The notes under the pieces are model-generated. The model was not told where the DNA came from, did no database searches, and worked only from the letters and a program-made list of their open reading frames with translations. A stretch of 63,222 nucleotides of DNA from Mesorhizobium sp. SARCC-RB16n. Lineage in GTDB: Bacteria > Pseudomonadota > Alphaproteobacteria > Rhizobiales > Rhizobiaceae. The position numbers were made by a program, and so were the translations under genes. Shown here in pieces: positions 51,477-63,222 of this stretch. The stretch is taken from assembly GCF_008520305.1 (NCBI RefSeq), contig NZ_ML703265.1, positions 1-63,222 on the forward strand, read 5' to 3'. Numbering within the stretch: position 1 is the first letter of the stretch; each line of letters opens with the position of its first letter.

Positions 51477-52535
51477 ATGGAACTCGGCCTCTACACTTTT
51501 GCCGATGTGAGCCCTCAGCCGGGTCCCGGCGCCGTCGGGCCGCACGAGCGGTTGCGCAACCTGATCGAGGAGATCGAATTGGCCGATCAGGTCGGCCTCG
51601 ACGTCTTTGGCCTCGGCGAGCATCATCGGCCCGACTATGCCGCCTCGGCGCCGGTCGTGGCCTTGGCCGCGGCGGCGGAGCGTTCGAAGCGCATCAGACT
51701 GACCAGCGCGGTCACCGTCCTGTCCTCCGACGATCCGGTGCGCGTCTTCCAGCAATTCGCCACACTCGACCTGTTGTCGGGCGGCCGTGCCGAGATCATG
51801 GCCGGACGGGGATCGTTCATCGAATCCTTCCCGCTGTTCGGCTACAACCTCGAGGACTATGACGAGCTGTTCGCCGAAAAGCTCGACCTTTTGCTTGCCA
51901 TCCGCGATCAGGTGAAGGTGTCTTGGTCGGGCAATCTGCGCGCGCCGATCAACGATCGTGGCGTCTATCCCAGGCCGTTCCAGGACAGGCTGCCGGTCTG
52001 GATCGCCATTGGCGGAACGCCGCAATCGGCCGCCCGCGCCGGCGCGCTCGGCCTGCCGCTGGCGCTTGCCATCATCGGCGGCGAACCGGCGCGCTTCGCG
52101 CCGCTGTTCGACCTCTACCGTGAGGCCGCCAGGCGTGCCGGCAGCGATCCGGCAGGGCTGGCCACAAGCATCAACGTGCATGGCTTCATCGCCGAGACTA
52201 CCGAGCAGGCGGCGGACGATTTCTACGGTCCGCAAGCCGAAGTGATGAACCGCATCGGCCGTGAGCGCGGCTGGGGTCCGACATCGCGCGCGCATTTCGA
52301 CCAGTCGCGTGGTCCCGATGGCGCCCTGTTCGTCGGCAATCCGGAGCAGGTTGCGGAAAAGATCGTCGCCCAGCAAAGGATCTTCGGCAACAACCGCTTC
52401 CTGCTGCAAATGGCGATCGGCACCATGCCGCACGCCAAGATCATGAAGGCGATCGAGCTTTACGGCACCAAGGTGGCGCCGATCGTGCGCAAGGAAACGG
52501 CGAAAGCCATTCCGGCAACGGCGCCCGCCGCCTGA
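51477..52535 (+). CDS. LLM-class flavin-dependent oxidoreductase (luciferase-like)
   Basis: The 352-residue TIM-barrel protein belongs to the bacterial luciferase-like monooxygenase superfamily. Typical segments are [40 protein letters not shown] and the C-terminal [14 protein letters not shown]. Members use FMNH2 or F420 to oxidise small organic molecules; in this group the substrate is usually unknown. A second LLM protein is at 54861-55862. Confidence 0.9.
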
Positions 52536-54030: not shown

Positions 54031-54864
54031 ATGAACGACGTTCCCCTCGACCTTGACGCCTATTTCGCCCGGATCGGCCATGCTGGTTCCAGGGATGTCT
54101 CGCTCGACACGCTGAAGACGCTTCATTTCTTGCATCCGCAGGCGATTCCCTTCGAGAACATGGATCCGTTTCTGGGGCGCCCCGTCCGGCTGGATGTTGC
54201 CTCGCTGCAGGACAAGATCGTCGTTGGTGGACGCGGCGGCTATTGCTTCGAGCACAATCTCCTCTTCATGCATGCGCTGAAGGCGCTAGGCTTCGAGGTC
54301 GGCGGGCTCGCCGCGCGTGTGCTTTGGGGCCAGAGCGAGGGCGCCATCACAGCGCGTAGCCATATGCTTTTGCGCGTCGAGCTAGACGGCCGCACCTATA
54401 TCGCCGATGTCGGCTTCGGCGGCCTGACGCTTACGGCGCCGCTGCTGCTGAAGGCCGGCCCGGAACAAAAAACCCCGCACGAGACATTCCGCATCGTCGA
54501 GGCTGGCGATCATTTTCGCCTGCAGGCCGCCCTCGGCGGCGACTGGCGCTCTCTGTATCGCTTCGATCTGCAGCCGCAATATGAGGTTGACTATTCCGTC
54601 GCCAATTATTTCCTGTCGACCAACCCGGCATCGCATTTCCTGACCTCGGTTTTGGCGGCGCGCGCCGCGCCCGACCGGCGCCACGCCCTGCGCGGCGATC
54701 ACCTGTCGATTCATCACATCGATGGCCGAACCGAACAGAAGCAGATCGCCACTGCCGCCGAACTTGCCGACACATTGGAAGGCCAGCTCGGCATCACCAT
54801 TCCCGACCGCACGGCCTTCGAGGCCCGGGTGCGCGAGACGAAGATCGTGGAGACCAGTATATGA
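54031..54864 (+). CDS. nat: Arylamine N-acetyltransferase
   Basis: The 277-residue enzyme acetylates arylamines and hydrazines. The catalytic triad is visible: Cys72 in [11 protein letters not shown], His111 in [11 protein letters not shown] and Asp126 in [12 protein letters not shown] 54031 gives the normal NAT length; the earlier in-frame start at 53974 is less likely. The stop codon overlaps the ATG of an LLM monooxygenase gene (ATGA), so the two are translationally coupled. Confidence 0.95.
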
Positions 54865-55862
54865 CCGAACTGTCCGTTCTCGATCTGTCGCCGATCGTCG
54901 AAGGCAGCGATGCCGCGCAATCGCTCGCCAATTCGCTCGACCTCGCCCGCCACGCCGAGCGGCTCGGTTACAAGCGCTACTGGCTGGCCGAGCATCACAA
55001 CATGCCGGGCATCGCCAGTGCGGCCACATCGGTCGTCATCGCCCATGTCGCCGGCGGCACCAAGACCATTCGTGTCGGCGCCGGCGGCATCATGCTGCCC
55101 AACCATGCGCCGCTGGTGATCGCCGAGCAGTTCGGCACGCTGGCCGCCTTGTTTCCCGGCCGCATCGACCTCGGCCTCGGCAGGGCGCCCGGCACGGACA
55201 TGAACACGGCGCGCGCATTGCGCCGCAATCTCGAGGCCGGCGTCGACAATTTCCCGCAGGATGTCGTCGAGCTGATGGGCTATTTCCTGCCCGCGGAGGA
55301 AGGCCAGCGCCTGCGCGCCGTGCCCGGCGAAGGCCAGACGGTGCCGATCTGGATTCTCGGGTCGAGCCTCTATGGCGCGCAGCTCGCCGCCATGCTCGGC
55401 CTGCCCTACGCCTTCGCCTCGCATTTCGCGCCGGCGGAGCTCGATCACGCGCTGGATATCTACCGCTCGCGCTTCCAGCCATCCGAGCAGCTCGACAAGC
55501 CGCATGTCATGCTCGGCCTCAACGTCTTTGCAGCGCTCACCGACGCCGAGGCACGGCTGCTGTTCACCTCGCTGCAGCAGGCCTTCGTCAATCTGCGCAC
55601 CGGCAGGCCTGGACGACTGCCGCCGCCGGTCGAGAACTATGAGCGGGATCTCGACCCGATGGCAAAGACCATGCTCGGCCAGGCACTGTCCTGCGCCGTC
55701 GTCGGCTCGCCGGAAACGGTCCGGCAAGGCATCGATGCGTTCGTGCGCCGCACCGGCGCCGACGAGCTGATGGTCACCGCGCAGATCTTCGATCACGCCG
55801 CCCGCGTGCGCTCCTTCGAGATTTTGGCCGAGGCCCACAAATCGCTGTCGCAAGCCGCCTGA
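54861..55862 (+). CDS. LLM-class flavin-dependent oxidoreductase, coupled to nat
   Basis: The 333-residue luciferase-like protein (YhbW/LuxA-like group) has [35 protein letters not shown] and [23 protein letters not shown]. It overlaps nat by 4 bp. Coupling of an N-acetyltransferase with a flavin monooxygenase suggests joint modification of an aromatic or amine compound (inference). It is not close in sequence to the LLM protein at 51477-52535. Confidence 0.92.
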
Positions 55863-56982: not shown

Positions 56983-57045
56983 GAGAACAGGAAGGAGGGG
57001 CATCGCATGGCGCTGCCCCTCGTCTGCCGCAGCCGGGCTTTTCGC

Positions 57046-57768
57046 CTACAGGATTTTCGCCAGGAAACTCTTGGTGCGGTTCCTCTGCGGATACGAAAAG
57101 AGTGCCTGTGGCGCTCCCTCCTCCACGATCAATCCGTCATCCATGAAAATCACCCTGTGCCCGACCTCACGGGCAAAGCCCATCTCGTGGGTGACGACCA
57201 TCATCGTCATGCCTTCGATCGCGAGCGTCTTCATGACCTGAAGCACCTCACCCACCATTTCGGGGTCGAGCGCCGAGGTCGGTTCGTCGAAAAGCATGAC
57301 ATTGGGTCCCATGGCCAGCGAGCGGGCGATCGCCACCCGTTGCTGCTGGCCGCCGGAAAGCTCGTCCGGGTAGCTCGCTTCCTTCCCCACGAGGCCGACC
57401 TTGGCCAGCAACTCGCGCGCGACCCGGTTGGCTTCGGCCGGCGCGATCTTCTTGACCTTGCGCGGGCCGATCGTGACGTTCTCCAGAATGGTCAAATGCT
57501 TGAAGAGATTGAACTGCTGGAACACCATGCCGACATGCTGGCGCAGCAGGTGAATGTTCGTCTTCGGATCGGTCAGCGTCATGCCGGCGATTTCAATCTC
57601 GCCGCTGGTTGCGGTCTCCAAGCCGTTCAGGCAGCGCAGAAACGTGCTTTTGCCGCTCCCCGAAGGGCCGATAATGACGACCACCTCTTTTTCCGCCACA
57701 TGCGTGCTTATCCCCTTCAGGATCTCATTGTGGCCGAAGGACTTGTGAAGGTCTTTAACGTTTATCAA
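57046..57768 (-). CDS. Polar amino acid-type ABC transporter ATP-binding protein
   Basis: The 240-residue ATPase of the GlnQ/HisP group has Walker A (GPSGSGKST), the Q-loop ([11 protein letters not shown]), the ABC signature LSGGQQQR, Walker B ([12 protein letters not shown]) and the switch His (VVTHEMGFA). The start is TTG 57768, with GGAGG about 7 nt upstream; it overlaps the permease gene by 14 bp, and the longer in-frame start at 57879 has Arg/Ser-rich non-coding character. It is the last gene of an SBP-permease-ATPase importer operon. Confidence 0.94.
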
Positions 57769-58423
57769 CTTGAAGCCTCCTCTCCAGGTAAGACGAGAAC
57801 TTCGACAAGGAGAAGATGAGGACGAAGTACAGGGCCGCGATGAGACCCCAGATGGCGAAGGACGCGAACGTCTCGGCAATGACGATCTCGCCCTTGTAGA
57901 CCAGCTCGGCGATGCCGACCGGAGCCAGCAGCGAGGTGTCCTTGATCGTCTGGGCCGCCTGGTTGACCAGCGGCGGTATCATGCGCTTGAACGCCTGGGG
58001 CAGCACGATGTAGCGCATCGTCTGAAAGCCGTTCATCGCGATGCTCTGGGCGGCTTCCTTCTGGCCCCGGTCGACGCCGAGAATACCCGCGCGGATGATT
58101 TCGGTGACGTAGGCACCTTCGTTCAGGCTGAGCGTGAGCGCGGCCGCGAGGATGGGATATGTCAATTGCCCGAACCAGTGGTTGACGGGCAGGATCGCAG
58201 GCAACCCAAGCACGATGAAGAAGAGTTGCACCAACAGCGGCGTGGATCGGAAAATTTCGACATAGGCCGTGGCGATCCAGCGCAGCGGCGCAACCGCCGA
58301 CAGGCGCATGAGTGCCGCGACAAGGCCGATGACCACCATCAGGATGATGGCGACAATCGAATACTGGATCGTCAGCCGCAAACCGTCGAGTAGAACGGGT
58401 AGGTTTTGCCGGATGGGGTCCAT
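57755..58423 (-). CDS. Polar amino acid-type ABC transporter permease
   Basis: The 222-residue inner-membrane protein has about five transmembrane helices and the HisM/GlnP EAA loop ([20 protein letters not shown]). It pairs with the downstream ATPase, which it overlaps, and probably forms a homodimeric channel since only one permease gene is present. Confidence 0.95.
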
Positions 58424-58560
58424 GCGCCGTGCCTTGATTGCTATCCCCGGCCGCCTCGGCGAGAAGAAGGCATCGCAGTGGTTTCGCCACTTGCTTTGCG
58501 ATCACCTGCCGGACGGCCGGGAGGCTGAGCTATCTGTCGTTCAGACGATCAGAACGTGAC

Positions 58561-59373
58561 TCAACCCGAAATCGCAACGCTCGCCGGCTTTTGCACTTCC
58601 TTGACCATGCCGCTGGTATCGCCGCCGAAATATGTCTCGAACAGCTTCTGATATTCGCCGTTCTGCTTGATCTTGGCGAGGCCGTCATTAATCTTCGCGG
58701 CCAGCTCGGGCTTTTGTTTGCTGATGGCGATGCCGTAATATTCGCCGGTCAGCAGCGGGCCGACGATCTTGACGTCGTCATGGGCGGTTTTGAAATTGAC
58801 GTTGACCGGGTTGTCGAAGATGACGGCGTCGGCCCCACCAGTCTCAAGCGCCTGATAGGCGGCATCGATGTTCTGGAATTGCTTGATGTAGTCGGACTGG
58901 AAACCCTTGGCGGTCATATAGTCCACCGATGAGGTGGCTTTCTTGGTGGCAACCACGTGGCCCTTGAGGTCGTCGAAACCCTTGATGTCGGAGTCTTTCT
59001 TGACCAGCACTGAAAGGCCGGACTTGTAATAGGCATCGCTGAAATCGACGTTCTGCATCCGGCTGGTCTTGATCGTGATCCCGGCGACCGCCGCGTCGAT
59101 CGATCCGGCCTGCAGGCTCGGGATAATTCCGTTGAACGGCAGTGTCTTCAAACTGACCGTCATGCCTTCTGCCTTGGCGATTGCCTTGATCATGTCGATG
59201 TCGAAGCCGGTAACCTCGCCGTTCGTCTCGGTCTCGAACGGCGGGAAGGTGGTATCCGCGCCGACGACGATGTTGGTCGCGCTTTGCGCAAGCGCCACCG
59301 AGGTAGCGCCGTATGCAAGCACGAGGCCGGAAACCAGCGACGTGGCCAGCACGATGAGTGACTTGTTTTTCAC
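58561..59373 (-). CDS. Polar amino acid-type ABC transporter substrate-binding protein
   Basis: The 270-residue periplasmic protein has a signal peptide (MKNKSLIVLATSLVSGLVLA ending near ALAQS) and the SBP_bac_3 fold (TTFPPFETETNGEVTGFDID; the VKKDSDIKGFDDLKG hinge). It should deliver a polar amino acid or similar solute to the downstream permease and ATPase. It lies 210 bp after the MarR gene of the reductase operon on the same strand, raising the possibility that it imports that operon's substrate. Confidence 0.95.
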   Translation of the reverse strand: MKNKSLIVLATSLVSGLVLAYGATSVALAQSATNIVVGADTTFPPFETETNGEVTGFDIDMIKAIAKAEGMTVSLKTLPFNGIIPSLQAGSIDAAVAGITIKTSRMQNVDFSDAYYKSGLSVLVKKDSDIKGFDDLKGHVVATKKATSSVDYMTAKGFQSDYIKQFQNIDAAYQALETGGADAVIFDNPVNVNFKTAHDDVKIVGPLLTGEYYGIAISKQKPELAAKINDGLAKIKQNGEYQKLFETYFGGDTSGMVKEVQKPASVAISG

Positions 59374-59583
59374 AGATGTCTCCTTTCGGCGGGCATTCGT
59401 CAGCTTCGAGCGGAGTCAACGACGAGGAGTGGTGCGTGAATGCATGAACTCTAGGCCCGTCCGGAGCCATCTGGATCGGCAGGGGTCCAAGTCAAGACTT
59501 AGAGATGCTTCACATTTGCGTTTTGGATTGGGCCACGATTGCCGCTCTTTTCAGGGGGCGGCGATCCACTTGGCGGGCGGCGC

Positions 59584-60045
59584 CTAAGCCAGCTTGGCCA
59601 GCAGCTTCATGAACGTAGCGATTTCCTTGTTCGTGAGCGGCGCCAGCGTTTCCTGCGTGATTTCCCTTGCGAGCGGGATCAGGCGCTCGATCGCTTCGCG
59701 GCCCTCCGCTGTCAGGTTGACCAGCAGCCGTCTTTTGTCGACCTCGTGCCTGGAAAGCTCGACAAGGCCGCGCGCCTTCAACCGGTCGATCACGCCCTTC
59801 ACCGTTGCCGCATCCATGGCAATCAGCGTGCCGAGCTGGTTCTGCGAAGTCTCGCCGACATCGCGCAGCTTGGCGAGCGCGGCGAATTGCGGCGGCGTCA
59901 GGTCGGCGATACGGGCAGCGAAGATCGACACATGGCGCTGGTGCGCCTTGCGCAGGATGAAGCCGACCTGCTCCTGCAAGAGGTAGTCGTGATCGTCGGC
60001 CTCTTCGGCATCGACCAGCTTGAGCAAATTGTCGTCGCCGCTCAC
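59584..60045 (-). CDS. MarR family regulator of the reductase operon
   Basis: The 153-residue protein has the MarR winged helix-turn-helix (LAKLRDVGETSQNQLGTLIA, MDAATVKGVIDRLKARGLVE). It overlaps the 'amino acid synthesis' family gene by 4 bp (ATGA), so it is the last member of a four-gene coupled operon starting at 63044. It probably senses a pathway intermediate, a common job for MarR proteins in aromatic and heterocycle catabolism. Confidence 0.92.
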   Translation of the reverse strand: MSGDDNLLKLVDAEEADDHDYLLQEQVGFILRKAHQRHVSIFAARIADLTPPQFAALAKLRDVGETSQNQLGTLIAMDAATVKGVIDRLKARGLVELSRHEVDKRRLLVNLTAEGREAIERLIPLAREITQETLAPLTNKEIATFMKLLAKLA

Positions 60046-60626
60046 CGCAGCCCATCCCAGGCTTTTATCTCATCCGCCGCGAGGCCACCCATGCGGTTAT
60101 GAACGCGCGGGCCGCAGGTCATGGCTAGGCAGAACAGGATCTCGTCGGGGCGCGGCCCGTCGCTGATGCCGACTTCCATGGCATCGAAATGGCTGCGCAC
60201 ATAAGCGGCGTTGATGTGGCCGAGCGGCACATCGAGCTTTGACCCGAAGGCGCCGACCTTCTTGGCCGAAGGCACGATCGCCTTGGCATCGCCCAGCCGC
60301 TCGCGCATCGCGTAGCCGCCCGGCACATGCCACAGCGCGCCATGTTCCAGTTCGCCAGCGCTGCCGACGATGGCGCCCTTGCCGTAGCCGTCGATCTGTT
60401 TGACGTCGCCGCCGAGTGCGGCGATCAGCCGGTCGGCGAGCAGCAGGCCGAGCGGCTTCAGATCGTCCATGGCGCTCTGCAGATCCTCGACATAGCGCCC
60501 GGCGAAAGGGTTCCCGACCACGGCCATGGCAGCGGCACGCCGGCGCGGCACTTCAGCGACAGGCCCGCCTTCGTGAAAAATCTCTTCGCTCAGCACCGCG
60601 ATCTTGCGGATCGGAAACTCAGGCAT
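60042..60626 (-). CDS. 'Amino acid synthesis' family protein (PF06684/DUF1185 type)
   Basis: The 194-residue protein belongs to the family named amino acid synthesis (DUF1185). Its name rests on old genetic evidence and its activity is unknown. Visible conserved segments are GGPVAEVPRRRAAAMAVVGN, PFAGRYVEDL and GYGKGAIVGSAGELEHGA. ATG 60626 follows GGAGG and overlaps the end of the UPF0280 gene by 8 bp. It is always worth reading with its neighbours: UPF0280 and the 6-hydroxynicotinate reductase-like gene. Confidence 0.88.
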   Translation of the reverse strand: MPEFPIRKIAVLSEEIFHEGGPVAEVPRRRAAAMAVVGNPFAGRYVEDLQSAMDDLKPLGLLLADRLIAALGGDVKQIDGYGKGAIVGSAGELEHGALWHVPGGYAMRERLGDAKAIVPSAKKVGAFGSKLDVPLGHINAAYVRSHFDAMEVGISDGPRPDEILFCLAMTCGPRVHNRMGGLAADEIKAWDGLR

Positions 60627-61503
60627 GGGCAACTTCCTCCAGTTCATGCTTGTTGGGCGCGCCGAGTGCAACGGAGCCACTGATGCGGGCCTCCCCGCCA
60701 AGAAACAGCGCCGATGCGGCAATCAAGCCGCGCCGGCGAAAATCTTCGGCGACGGCGAGGCCATTGTCCAGCGCCCGCGCCACTTCATCAGGCGCAAGCG
60801 TGCCGACGCCTTGTGTCACCGGCCGCGCGCCGAGATCGCTGTCGGGCGACAGGTCGCGCGCGGGAATGCGCCTGATGGCGGGATTGCCTGGCAGGTCCAC
60901 CGCGTTGGCGATGAGCGTCGCCGCCGCATCGGCCTCGGCGCCGGTCCGCGCGAGCACGGTGACGGCATCGGCAATGCCAAGCGAGAAGGACCGGCCACGC
61001 CAGCCGCTGGTTGCGACGCCACCCACGCCATCTTGCGCGCGGATCGTGATTTGGTCGGCCATGCCGTTGCCGGTGCCGGCGACCGCCAATCCCATCGACC
61101 GGCCCTTGCCGATGTGGATGGCGCTATCGCCACCATTGTTGATATAGGCGCGGTCGAGCTTGCGACCTGCAAGCAGCGCGGCAAGCATTTCGTCGGCTAC
61201 CGATCCGGCCACGGCGGCCATTGGGGTGATGAAGCATTCCGCCAGGGGGATGACGGCTGCTTCCATGCGACGCGCGGTCGGACCGGCGAAGGCGCGCGGC
61301 GCCAGGAAGAATGCCGGGAGGCGCAATTCGGGAAGCTCCTCGACCAACTCGATCAGGATCGTCTGGAAGCGCGCGACGGCTTGGGCGTAGGCGGCGCGAC
61401 ACTCATCGGCCTCGCCGAAGGCCTCGACGATCAGGTCGATCGGCCCATGGTTGAGATGCAGCCGCTTGCCGTCCTGCAGCCAGTGCGCTTGCGGGCCTTC
61501 CAT
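60619..61503 (-). CDS. UPF0280 family protein (ApbE-superfamily relative)
   Basis: The 294-residue protein shows the UPF0280 marks ITPMAAVAGSVADEMLAAL and AYINNGGDSAIHI. UPF0280 proteins are related to ApbE, the FAD:protein FMN transferase that attaches FMN covalently to threonine or serine of partner proteins, but UPF0280 activity itself is unproven. ATG 61503 overlaps the stop codon of the upstream reductase gene by 1 bp (TGATG). It may flavinylate or otherwise modify the adjacent reductase (inference). Confidence 0.88.
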   Translation of the reverse strand: MEGPQAHWLQDGKRLHLNHGPIDLIVEAFGEADECRAAYAQAVARFQTILIELVEELPELRLPAFFLAPRAFAGPTARRMEAAVIPLAECFITPMAAVAGSVADEMLAALLAGRKLDRAYINNGGDSAIHIGKGRSMGLAVAGTGNGMADQITIRAQDGVGGVATSGWRGRSFSLGIADAVTVLARTGAEADAAATLIANAVDLPGNPAIRRIPARDLSPDSDLGARPVTQGVGTLAPDEVARALDNGLAVAEDFRRRGLIAASALFLGGEARISGSVALGAPNKHELEEVAHA

Positions 61504-63044
61504 CACCCGGCTCCGTTCGAGCTCGAGCGGCGCAACTGCGCCAGCGGCGGCCACGGATTGGTAGCCGCGGCACCCGTGCCGCGTCGCGGATTGAGGTACT
61601 CACCGCCCTTGGCGACGATGTCCGCGACGCTGCGGATTTCGGCCTCGTAGCCGCCGAGCCTCACATAGTCGTCGCGGCGCAGCGTGAACTCGATCGGCGC
61701 CACCAGCGCCGGCGTCGGCACATAGCCGAAGGCGCCTTCCGGTACCTTGGTGACATCGACCATCAGCGTGATGCCGCCGCCCGGCCAGACATAGACCGGC
61801 GCGCCGCCGACGGTCACATAGGTCTTCAGCCCTTGCACGGAGCGGGTGAGATTGACCGGGTTTTCGGTCACTCCGGCACGCAGCGACCCGCCGGCCCCGC
61901 CGATGAACAGCACGGTGCACAAAGCCGGCTCGCAATTGTCCTCGATCAGGTTGACGGATTTCTGCAGCCGTTCCGGAAACGGCTTTTCGATCGGCTTCAG
62001 GTCGTCGTCGAGTTCATAATAGGCGAACTGCTCGCCGGTGGTCGAAACCATCAGCAGCGACAGGCCCGGCCGCGCGCCCTTCTTGGCGTTCCACTCGCCG
62101 AGGATCGACAGCGGGTCTGAAATGCTCGTGCCGCCCCAGCCGAGGCCAGGCTCGGAGACCTTGAAATAGCGGCCTGGCGTCGAACGCCGACCGATGATCT
62201 TGATGCCCGTATCCTGCCAGCCCAGCACCTTGCCGGCCTGGTGTTCGGAGACGACGCCGGTGATGTGGTCGTCGACCACCACAACCTCGTCGACCAGGCC
62301 GCGCCATTGCGTGGCGAACATCCCGATGGTGGCCGAGCCGCAGCCGACCCGCATGCGATGTTCCTGCTTGCCGTCGATGATAGGTGACTTGCCGGCTTCG
62401 ACGATTATGGTGGCGCCTTCGTCGATGGTGAGTTCCACCGGCTTGCGGTTGCACAAATTGAGCAGCGCGTCGCATGTGGCGCGGCCCTCGGCCTTGGAGC
62501 CGCCGGTCAGATGATGCACGCCGCCGAGCGACAGCATCTGCGAGCCATATTCTCCCGTCGTGACATGGCCGATCGCCTCGCCCTCGGCCCGCACGGCAGC
62601 CGTTTCGGGTCCGATATGACGGTCGGTGTCAATCTTCACCTTGACGCCGCAGTAGGAGAAGATGCCTTCGGTCACCACGGTGACGAGATCGACGCCCTCG
62701 ACTTCCTGGCTGACGATGAAAGGCGCCGGCTTGTAATCGGGATAGGTGGTGCCGGCGCCGATTGCCGTGACGAAGCGCCGGCCGGTGTTGATCAGTTCGC
62801 CGTCCCACTGCTCGCCCTCGGCGACGAAGGGCACCACGGCGGCGCCGGTCTCCGTCGCGTGGTCGAGGATGGTCAGCGGGTCCATGCGCACGATCCGGCC
62901 CGCGGCATTGCCATAGCGATCGCAGGCGCCGGTGCGACCGTCAGCGATGTAGCACATGACGGGACAGGCGTCGCAGCGGATCTTTTCCGCCACCAGCTTC
63001 TCGCCGGGATCATGGGTCTCGAAGCGTTCGGCAAGCTCGCTCAT
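61503..63044 (-). CDS. 6-hydroxynicotinate reductase-like iron-sulfur protein
   Basis: The 513-residue protein has an N-terminal cysteine cluster Cys24-x2-Cys27-x3-Cys31-x9-Cys41 (IRCDACPVMC), suited to a [4Fe-4S] centre, then a large domain of the family annotated as 6-hydroxynicotinate reductase. The Eubacterium enzyme reduces 6-hydroxynicotinate with ferredoxin in anaerobic nicotinate fermentation, so the aerobic relative here may act on another cyclic amide or N-heterocycle. It heads the operon with UPF0280, DUF1185 and MarR. The 178 bp between its start and the window end hold no recognisable gene. Confidence 0.82.
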   Translation of the reverse strand: MSELAERFETHDPGEKLVAEKIRCDACPVMCYIADGRTGACDRYGNAAGRIVRMDPLTILDHATETGAAVVPFVAEGEQWDGELINTGRRFVTAIGAGTTYPDYKPAPFIVSQEVEGVDLVTVVTEGIFSYCGVKVKIDTDRHIGPETAAVRAEGEAIGHVTTGEYGSQMLSLGGVHHLTGGSKAEGRATCDALLNLCNRKPVELTIDEGATIIVEAGKSPIIDGKQEHRMRVGCGSATIGMFATQWRGLVDEVVVVDDHITGVVSEHQAGKVLGWQDTGIKIIGRRSTPGRYFKVSEPGLGWGGTSISDPLSILGEWNAKKGARPGLSLLMVSTTGEQFAYYELDDDLKPIEKPFPERLQKSVNLIEDNCEPALCTVLFIGGAGGSLRAGVTENPVNLTRSVQGLKTYVTVGGAPVYVWPGGGITLMVDVTKVPEGAFGYVPTPALVAPIEFTLRRDDYVRLGGYEAEIRSVADIVAKGGEYLNPRRGTGAAATNPWPPLAQLRRSSSNGAG

Positions 63045-63222
63045 CAGGCAACCTCACGATTGCGTTGAATCAGTTTAGGAGCTGATTGGGCGTTGGTCCC
63101 GCGCCACCGTGACGACTGCCTATGTCGCTTGCCCGATGAGGGCCCGCATGAGACTTGCAGCGTTTCGGTGGCCGAGAGCCACAGACGGGCTACAGGAAGA
63201 TGCGCCACGGACACTTCGGCCA

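Follow-up and report, generated by a model that had tools for sequence, protein, structure and literature searches.

We analysed a 63,222-nucleotide stretch of Mesorhizobium sp. SARCC-RB16n (contig NZ_ML703265.1), referred to here as the window, in which four overlapping minus-strand genes encode a homologue of 6-hydroxynicotinate reductase (Hnr), a UPF0280 protein, an AA_synth protein and a MarR-family regulator. This operon is likely to be the 6-hydroxynicotinate-reduction part of an aerobic nicotinate/nicotinamide module, with HyuAB as the putative ring opener and UPF0280 as the putative partner of the reductase. The assignment draws on gene content, the 1:1 pairing of Hnr with UPF0280, the complementarity of enamidase and HyuA and an ApbE fold, from which we infer every reaction, the cofactors and the ligand of the regulator. 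We are more confident that the pathway is the reductive nicotinate route already known, which passes through 6-hydroxynicotinate and tetrahydro-6-oxonicotinate (THON). What is new, as far as we searched, is the exact complementarity of enamidase and HyuA and the obligate partnership of UPF0280 with Hnr, the pathway itself being most likely known. The chances seem about even for the full proposal, namely that enamidase and the ATP-dependent HyuAB are two interchangeable openers that replace each other, and that Hnr works only with UPF0280 as a flavin-handling partner that is not a transferase.

An even sample of Alphaproteobacteria comprised 337 genomes, of which 65 carried Hnr. When these 65 genomes were searched in full, 28 encoded an enamidase (70–86% identity) and 37 a caprolactamase-like HyuA (56–71% identity), with none carrying both and none lacking both at cut-offs of 70% and 56% that were read off the data. 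HyuA relatives did not exceed 46% in the 28 enamidase genomes, and weaker enamidase relatives (34–42%) occurred in several genomes of both kinds. Genomes without Hnr, drawn at random and then thinned by hand, served as 52 controls; in these, no enamidase reached 70% (one stood at 42%), and HyuA stood at 54–55% in two and at 45% or less in the rest. Neighbourhoods were compared by homology in 80 related loci, which are weighted to Mesorhizobium (the first 24 listed belong to it) and some of which are cut by contig ends, and in 60 loci of a class sample. Within about 10 kb on each side of hnr, enamidase was found at 3 of the 80 loci and HyuA/HyuB at 23; for 66 other loci the counts were 18 and 23. 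The two never stood together, and the remaining loci had neither nearby. A further 12 loci comprised five with enamidase, two with HyuA/HyuB and five with neither nearby. On a quick tree of Hnr (70 rows), the enamidase/HyuA label had to switch at least nine times, with five of the switches forced by well-supported branches. In this tree the window took its label from the nearest genome (G001), and for nine named loci the neighbourhood alone decided; four of the 65 genomes, which have split or cut genes (G133, G255, G084 and G114), are absent from it. Given the kinship among the genomes, the switch count is the safer measure of complementarity.

Several Hnr loci carry an amidohydrolase, and the one at locus L074 has a full-length match in the enamidase of Eubacterium barkeri (2vun; E = 1.3e-107). 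Its orthologues are those of the 28 genomes above, whereas the other 37 Hnr genomes have none and carry HyuA. In the Neorhizobium locus L093, HyuA and HyuB share the Hydantoinase_A and Hydantoinase_B domains (PF01968, PF05378 and PF02538) with CapAB and OplAB, and their best NCBIfam match is to CapA and CapB. According to the available part of PMC8453981, CapA is the ATP-dependent phosphorylating subunit and CapB the ring-opening subunit of caprolactamase; an excerpt of PMC11033972 describes the ATP-dependent OplAB as opening the six-membered delta-valerolactam. Because THON is also a six-membered lactam and HyuAB resemble ATP-dependent lactamases, we propose that HyuAB would open THON at the cost of ATP, and that this putative lactamase probably replaces enamidase as the THON opener, including in the genus of the window. 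HyuAB differ from CapAB and OplAB in their association with Hnr and in scoring below the equivalog cut-offs, and their lactam substrate is putative. Of 23 genomes in the genus of the window, 22 carry HyuA (66–69% identity), the exception (G014) being the one without Hnr; a close enamidase homologue was found neither in 21 of the 23 nor in the window. The hyuAB genes of G001 lie on a different contig from the operon, beside a ferredoxin-NADP reductase homologue. A literature search, with most subscription papers beyond its reach, found nothing joining a hydantoinase with both nicotinic and hydroxynicotinic acid, or with oxonicotinate.

It is unlikely that HyuAB serve a later step or another process, whether as a carboxylase or on an amide further down the pathway, and that in the HyuAB-type genomes THON is opened by some enzyme not yet recognised, possibly AA_synth. 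HyuA is indeed also related to acetophenone and acetone carboxylases, and the AA_synth fold presumably belongs to a group that contains hydrolases, but such a division of labour sits badly with the exact complementarity of HyuA and enamidase. Moreover, nine of the 65 Hnr genomes, all of the HyuA type, have no AA_synth anywhere in the genome (G106, with a weak match, was left out of this list). AA_synth therefore cannot be the general opener, and we rejected it as the universal one.

Our suggestion that AA_synth handles the enamine or aldehyde from ring opening is made with low confidence. Its gene lies within 2.6 kb of hnr in 39 of the 65 genomes. When the AA_synth proteins were split at 54% identity to that of the window, a cut-off chosen after the values had been seen, the lower-identity subgroup was present at all 21 enamidase loci and at four of the 46 HyuAB loci. 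In one genome without Hnr (G231), the enamidase relative of 42% identity adjoins an AA_synth gene. According to the accessible text of PMC7913881, two proteins of the same family, TgnF and HcdD, are also found in catabolic operons, although of other pathways; TgnF is said to stimulate semialdehyde oxidation in the trigonelline pathway of Acinetobacter, and the authors saw no effect of HcdD.

The earlier note on this DNA had argued that, in a presumed aerobe, the genes could not belong to the known nicotinate fermentation and looked like an undescribed reductive pathway for an N-heterocycle or cyclic amide. The first argument fails because, according to the available part of PMC3511419, reduction to THON was reported in the aerobic Azorhizobium caulinodans, although PMC9304392 terms the route anaerobic in both E. 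barkeri and A. caulinodans. The fermentative lower half of the nicotinate route need not be present. The idea of a reductive module for an N-heterocycle held up, but not its being undescribed, the known THON route being the most likely. Both partial texts cite Alhapel 2006 for nicotinate catabolism via THON in E. barkeri; PMC9304392 describes a bifunctional enamidase that opens THON to (S)-2-formylglutarate in that organism, and PMC3511419 proposes the THON route for the nicotinate degrader Bradyrhizobiaceae SG-6C. The genus of the window departs from the route of A. caulinodans, SG-6C and E. barkeri in its HyuA and in lacking a close enamidase in nearly all genomes, as counted above, and the window further differs in having a regulator gene inside the operon. 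In our model, PncA would convert nicotinamide to nicotinate, a molybdenum hydroxylase would convert nicotinate to 6-hydroxynicotinate and Hnr, as an iron-sulfur reductase, would reduce this compound to THON, whose ring would then be opened to a formylglutarate-type product. In Mesorhizobium the opener would be not enamidase but the HyuA/HyuB lactamase, ATP-dependent and encoded elsewhere in the genome. UPF0280 would be an obligate flavin-nucleotide-handling partner of Hnr, either a subunit or a cofactor-insertion factor and not a canonical ApbE transferase, and MarR would be the likely sensor. AA_synth would probably act on the unstable enamine or aldehyde after ring opening, which is the weakest step.

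The surroundings of hnr in the 80 related loci and the 60 class-sample loci are consistent with this model. A molybdenum hydroxylase homologue was found at 74/80 and 53/60 loci and the homologue of its FAD subunit at 68/80 and 52/60. The earlier expectation that the enzyme genes recur together elsewhere, along with a MarR gene, was confirmed: UPF0280 stands at 78/80 and 60/60 loci, AA_synth at 69/80 and 43/60 and MarR homologues at 57/80 and 36/60. One genome (G366, locus L113) groups NicA, NicB, Hnr, UPF0280, AA_synth, ABC transporter genes, MarR, enamidase and ferredoxin-NADP reductase, a set that agrees with the description of the A. caulinodans nicotinate cluster in the available part of PMC3511419, and we infer that two proteins of that cluster are UPF0280 and AA_synth. 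In the nearest genome (locus L199), a molybdenum hydroxylase lies beside Hnr, and the PncA homologue beside this hydroxylase matches nicotinamidase 2wt9 and, with 213.6 bits, scores above the cut-off of 174 for the nicotinamidase equivalog.

The module might instead degrade another pyridine or cyclic amide, for instance a pyridone or some substituted nicotinate, and its enamidase and HyuAB versions would then work on different substrates. The hydroxylase at L199 leaves some room for this, as it matches nicotinate dehydrogenase 3hrd (2e-74) less closely than aldehyde oxidoreductase 1dgj (7.9e-126) in the PDB sequence comparison, and so do the class-sample loci, where a PncA homologue was found at just 1 of 60 and a Rieske oxygenase homologue at 11 of 60. 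We nevertheless regard a different substrate as improbable, since Hnr, UPF0280 and mostly the hydroxylase are common to both versions, the label switches repeatedly on the Hnr tree, the HyuAB-type Mesorhizobium cluster has a nicotinamidase next to it and the enamidase-type loci L108 and L212 contain a PncA homologue.

The identification of the reductase relies on homology to named proteins, with the E. barkeri enzyme itself outside the comparison. Relatives in 26 plasmid records share 57–71% identity (best 70.6%) over 89–96% of the query, and most of them are annotated as 6-hydroxynicotinate reductase. Seven cysteines (Cys24, 27, 31, 41, 132, 235 and 371) are shared without exception by the 147 aligned sequences, among them that of the window. 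The resemblance and the conserved cysteine cluster claimed in the earlier note were thus both recovered, and Hnr is predicted to be an iron-sulfur reductase with Cys24/27/31/41 as cluster ligands. Neither Pfam nor NCBIfam matched it at E 0.001, and the comparison with PDB sequences gave nothing credible (best E 0.75 as a single sequence and 0.46 as a profile). The predicted model was modest (pLDDT 74.8, pTM 0.66) and found no PDB match at E 0.001 or better, so that no fold was concluded. Of 37 genomes in the nearest genus, 36 carry Hnr; in a phylum-wide sample, 26 of 299 do.

UPF0280 follows Hnr closely. A strong match to NF003322 was obtained in the same 65 of the 337 alphaproteobacterial genomes that carry Hnr, with 64 above the cut-off and one (G133), whose gene is split by a contig end, just under it; five further genomes gave weak matches far below the cut-off. 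In 63 of the 65 genomes the genes for Hnr and UPF0280 stand side by side on one strand, and the exceptions (G133 and G255) have them at contig ends. As UPF0280 is present in all 65 Hnr genomes and AA_synth is absent from nine, UPF0280 looks tied to Hnr itself, as an obligate partner, and AA_synth to something more optional. Two of the 14 control genomes, those of Methanocaldococcus jannaschii and Methanosarcina acetivorans, also gave matches, below the NF003322 cut-off; the broader UPF0280 family would therefore have a role outside Hnr operons. No paper on a UPF0280 protein was found, also under DUF375, DVU1097 or 2O34, in a search that left most subscription papers beyond reach; DUF375 came up once, in a paper on human genetics.

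UPF0280 has an ApbE-like fold, and its N139, G142, D143, A208, D209, A212 and T213 are invariant in 51 rows and align with the ApbE motifs NxGGD and AD-x-x-AT, which we take to be motifs of the flavin adenine dinucleotide and metal site. The earlier proposal that an ApbE relative could modify a flavoprotein is thus supported as to the fold but not as to covalent flavinylation of the reductase. The SH-x-x-DP segment, which carries the catalytic His of ApbE (H257G is a named mutant), coincides with a gap in the UPF0280 profile alignment, and the ApbE-type acceptor motif occurs in 1 of 50 Hnr sequences; UPF0280 and its partner differ on both points from the ApbE/Ftp flavin transferases. It is accordingly doubtful that UPF0280 is a true flavinyl transferase that puts flavin mononucleotide on Hnr at an unrecognised site, as the earlier note proposed, even though the fold, the invariant residues and the obligate pairing would all suit such an enzyme. 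Also in favour of a transferase, 13 of the 25 genomes examined in the genus of the window have no PF02424 match although all 13 carry Hnr, so that a canonical ApbE could not serve Hnr there.

The gene calls are given in Table 1. The four genes overlap by 1 bp (hnr/UPF0280), 8 bp (UPF0280/AA_synth) and 4 bp (AA_synth/MarR), in agreement with the coupled unit described earlier. The longest UPF0280 frame begins at a GTG (61554), and the ATG that we chose gives the 1-bp overlap with the reductase stop. The UPF0280 protein passes NF003322 (389.5 bits, cut-off 290), the AA_synth protein passes PF06684 (E 1.5e-70, 236.7 bits, gathering cut-off 27) and matches 3byq (E 1.1e-55), and the MarR protein passes PF01047 (E 4.9e-12, 46 bits, gathering cut-off 24.6); the hnr and UPF0280 products had no match in Pfam. 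The gene set is real and conserved, far beyond chance, because Hnr is found in nearly all genomes of the nearest genus and is adjacent to UPF0280 in 63 of 65.

Table 1. Genes of the operon and the adjoining element in the window.
Feature	Position	Strand	Basis
hnr, 6-hydroxynicotinate reductase homologue, 513 aa	61503..63044	-	ORF; named homologues; N-terminal CxxCPxxC...C cluster motif
UPF0280 gene (ApbE-like fold), putative Hnr partner	60619..61503 (ATG at 61503)	-	NCBIfam NF003322
AA_synth (PF06684, formerly DUF1185), Bacillus-chorismate-mutase-like fold family	60042..60626	-	Pfam; PDB 3byq; PMC2954203 (available part)
MarR-family regulator	59584..60045	-	PF01047; MarR homologues at related loci
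Probable end of IS110-type insertion element, abutting the hnr start codon	63045..63222	.	relatives' homology ends at ATG; L201 match

Homology to the Mesorhizobium relatives ends where the hnr ATG stands, for most of them to within one or two bases. At this place, six relatives have a ribosome-binding site of the AAGGAGG type and the hydroxylase gene's end. The 178 bp found there in the window have, among 233 loci, a match only in L201 (79.8% identity), in plasmid pM0123d of M. amorphae, where the matching stretch has the start of hrcU on one side and an IS110-family transposase on the other. An insertion element thus probably separates hnr from its hydroxylase in this strain. The sequence ATGAGCGA abuts both junctions, at hnr here and at hrcU in pM0123d, as if the element targeted such gene starts. 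Beyond the other end of the operon, about 210 bp past the MarR gene, a polar-amino-acid-type ABC transporter (binding protein, permease and ATPase) lies on the same strand at 57046–59373. We rejected it as a conserved part of the module, as the binding protein was found at 1 of the 80 loci (L015) and at none of the 66 others. Two luciferase-like flavin monooxygenases (51477–52535, TIGR03858, and 54861–55862, TIGR03558) are found within about 12 kb of the operon, and Rfam gave nothing at E 0.1 for 57000–63222.

Several observations weigh against the assignment of the operon to nicotinate degradation with HyuAB as opener. The window contains no match to the hydroxylase, PncA, enamidase or HyuAB, and the operon may be silent in this strain, with an IS110-type element standing where the hydroxylase would end; a HyuA of the source strain is presumed from the nearest genome (G001). 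To the cut-offs read off the data may be added that the matches of L093 HyuA and HyuB to CapA and CapB (482.5 and 309.2 bits) are far under the equivalog cut-off of 1000 each. A PncA homologue stands at 43 of the 80 related loci against the single one of the wider sample, and is seldom adjacent outside the Mesorhizobium group; AA_synth, as noted, is dispensed with in nine Hnr genomes. Finally, enamidase relatives above 50% identity occur in 2 of the 23 genomes of the genus (G010 and G015, 60–61%), alongside HyuA and in a separate cluster without Hnr. Such Hnr-less clusters in two Mesorhizobium genomes (L196, 9298–12577, and L197, 3531–6378) hold the 60–61% enamidase homologue, two AA_synth genes, a MarR gene and a weak isochorismatase-like match, and perhaps serve another cyclic enamide.

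The proposed module gives testable jobs to UPF0280, HyuAB and AA_synth, proteins without established function, and predicts the use of nicotinate in most Mesorhizobium and in many other Alphaproteobacteria. A role of UPF0280 with Hnr would also give a lead for its relatives in the two methanogens. The proposed opening of THON by HyuAB is the step that we rate most worth testing. If the proposal is true, an ATP-spending enzyme has repeatedly swapped with an ATP-free hydrolase at one step, which would be both an unusual exchange and a new lactamase activity.

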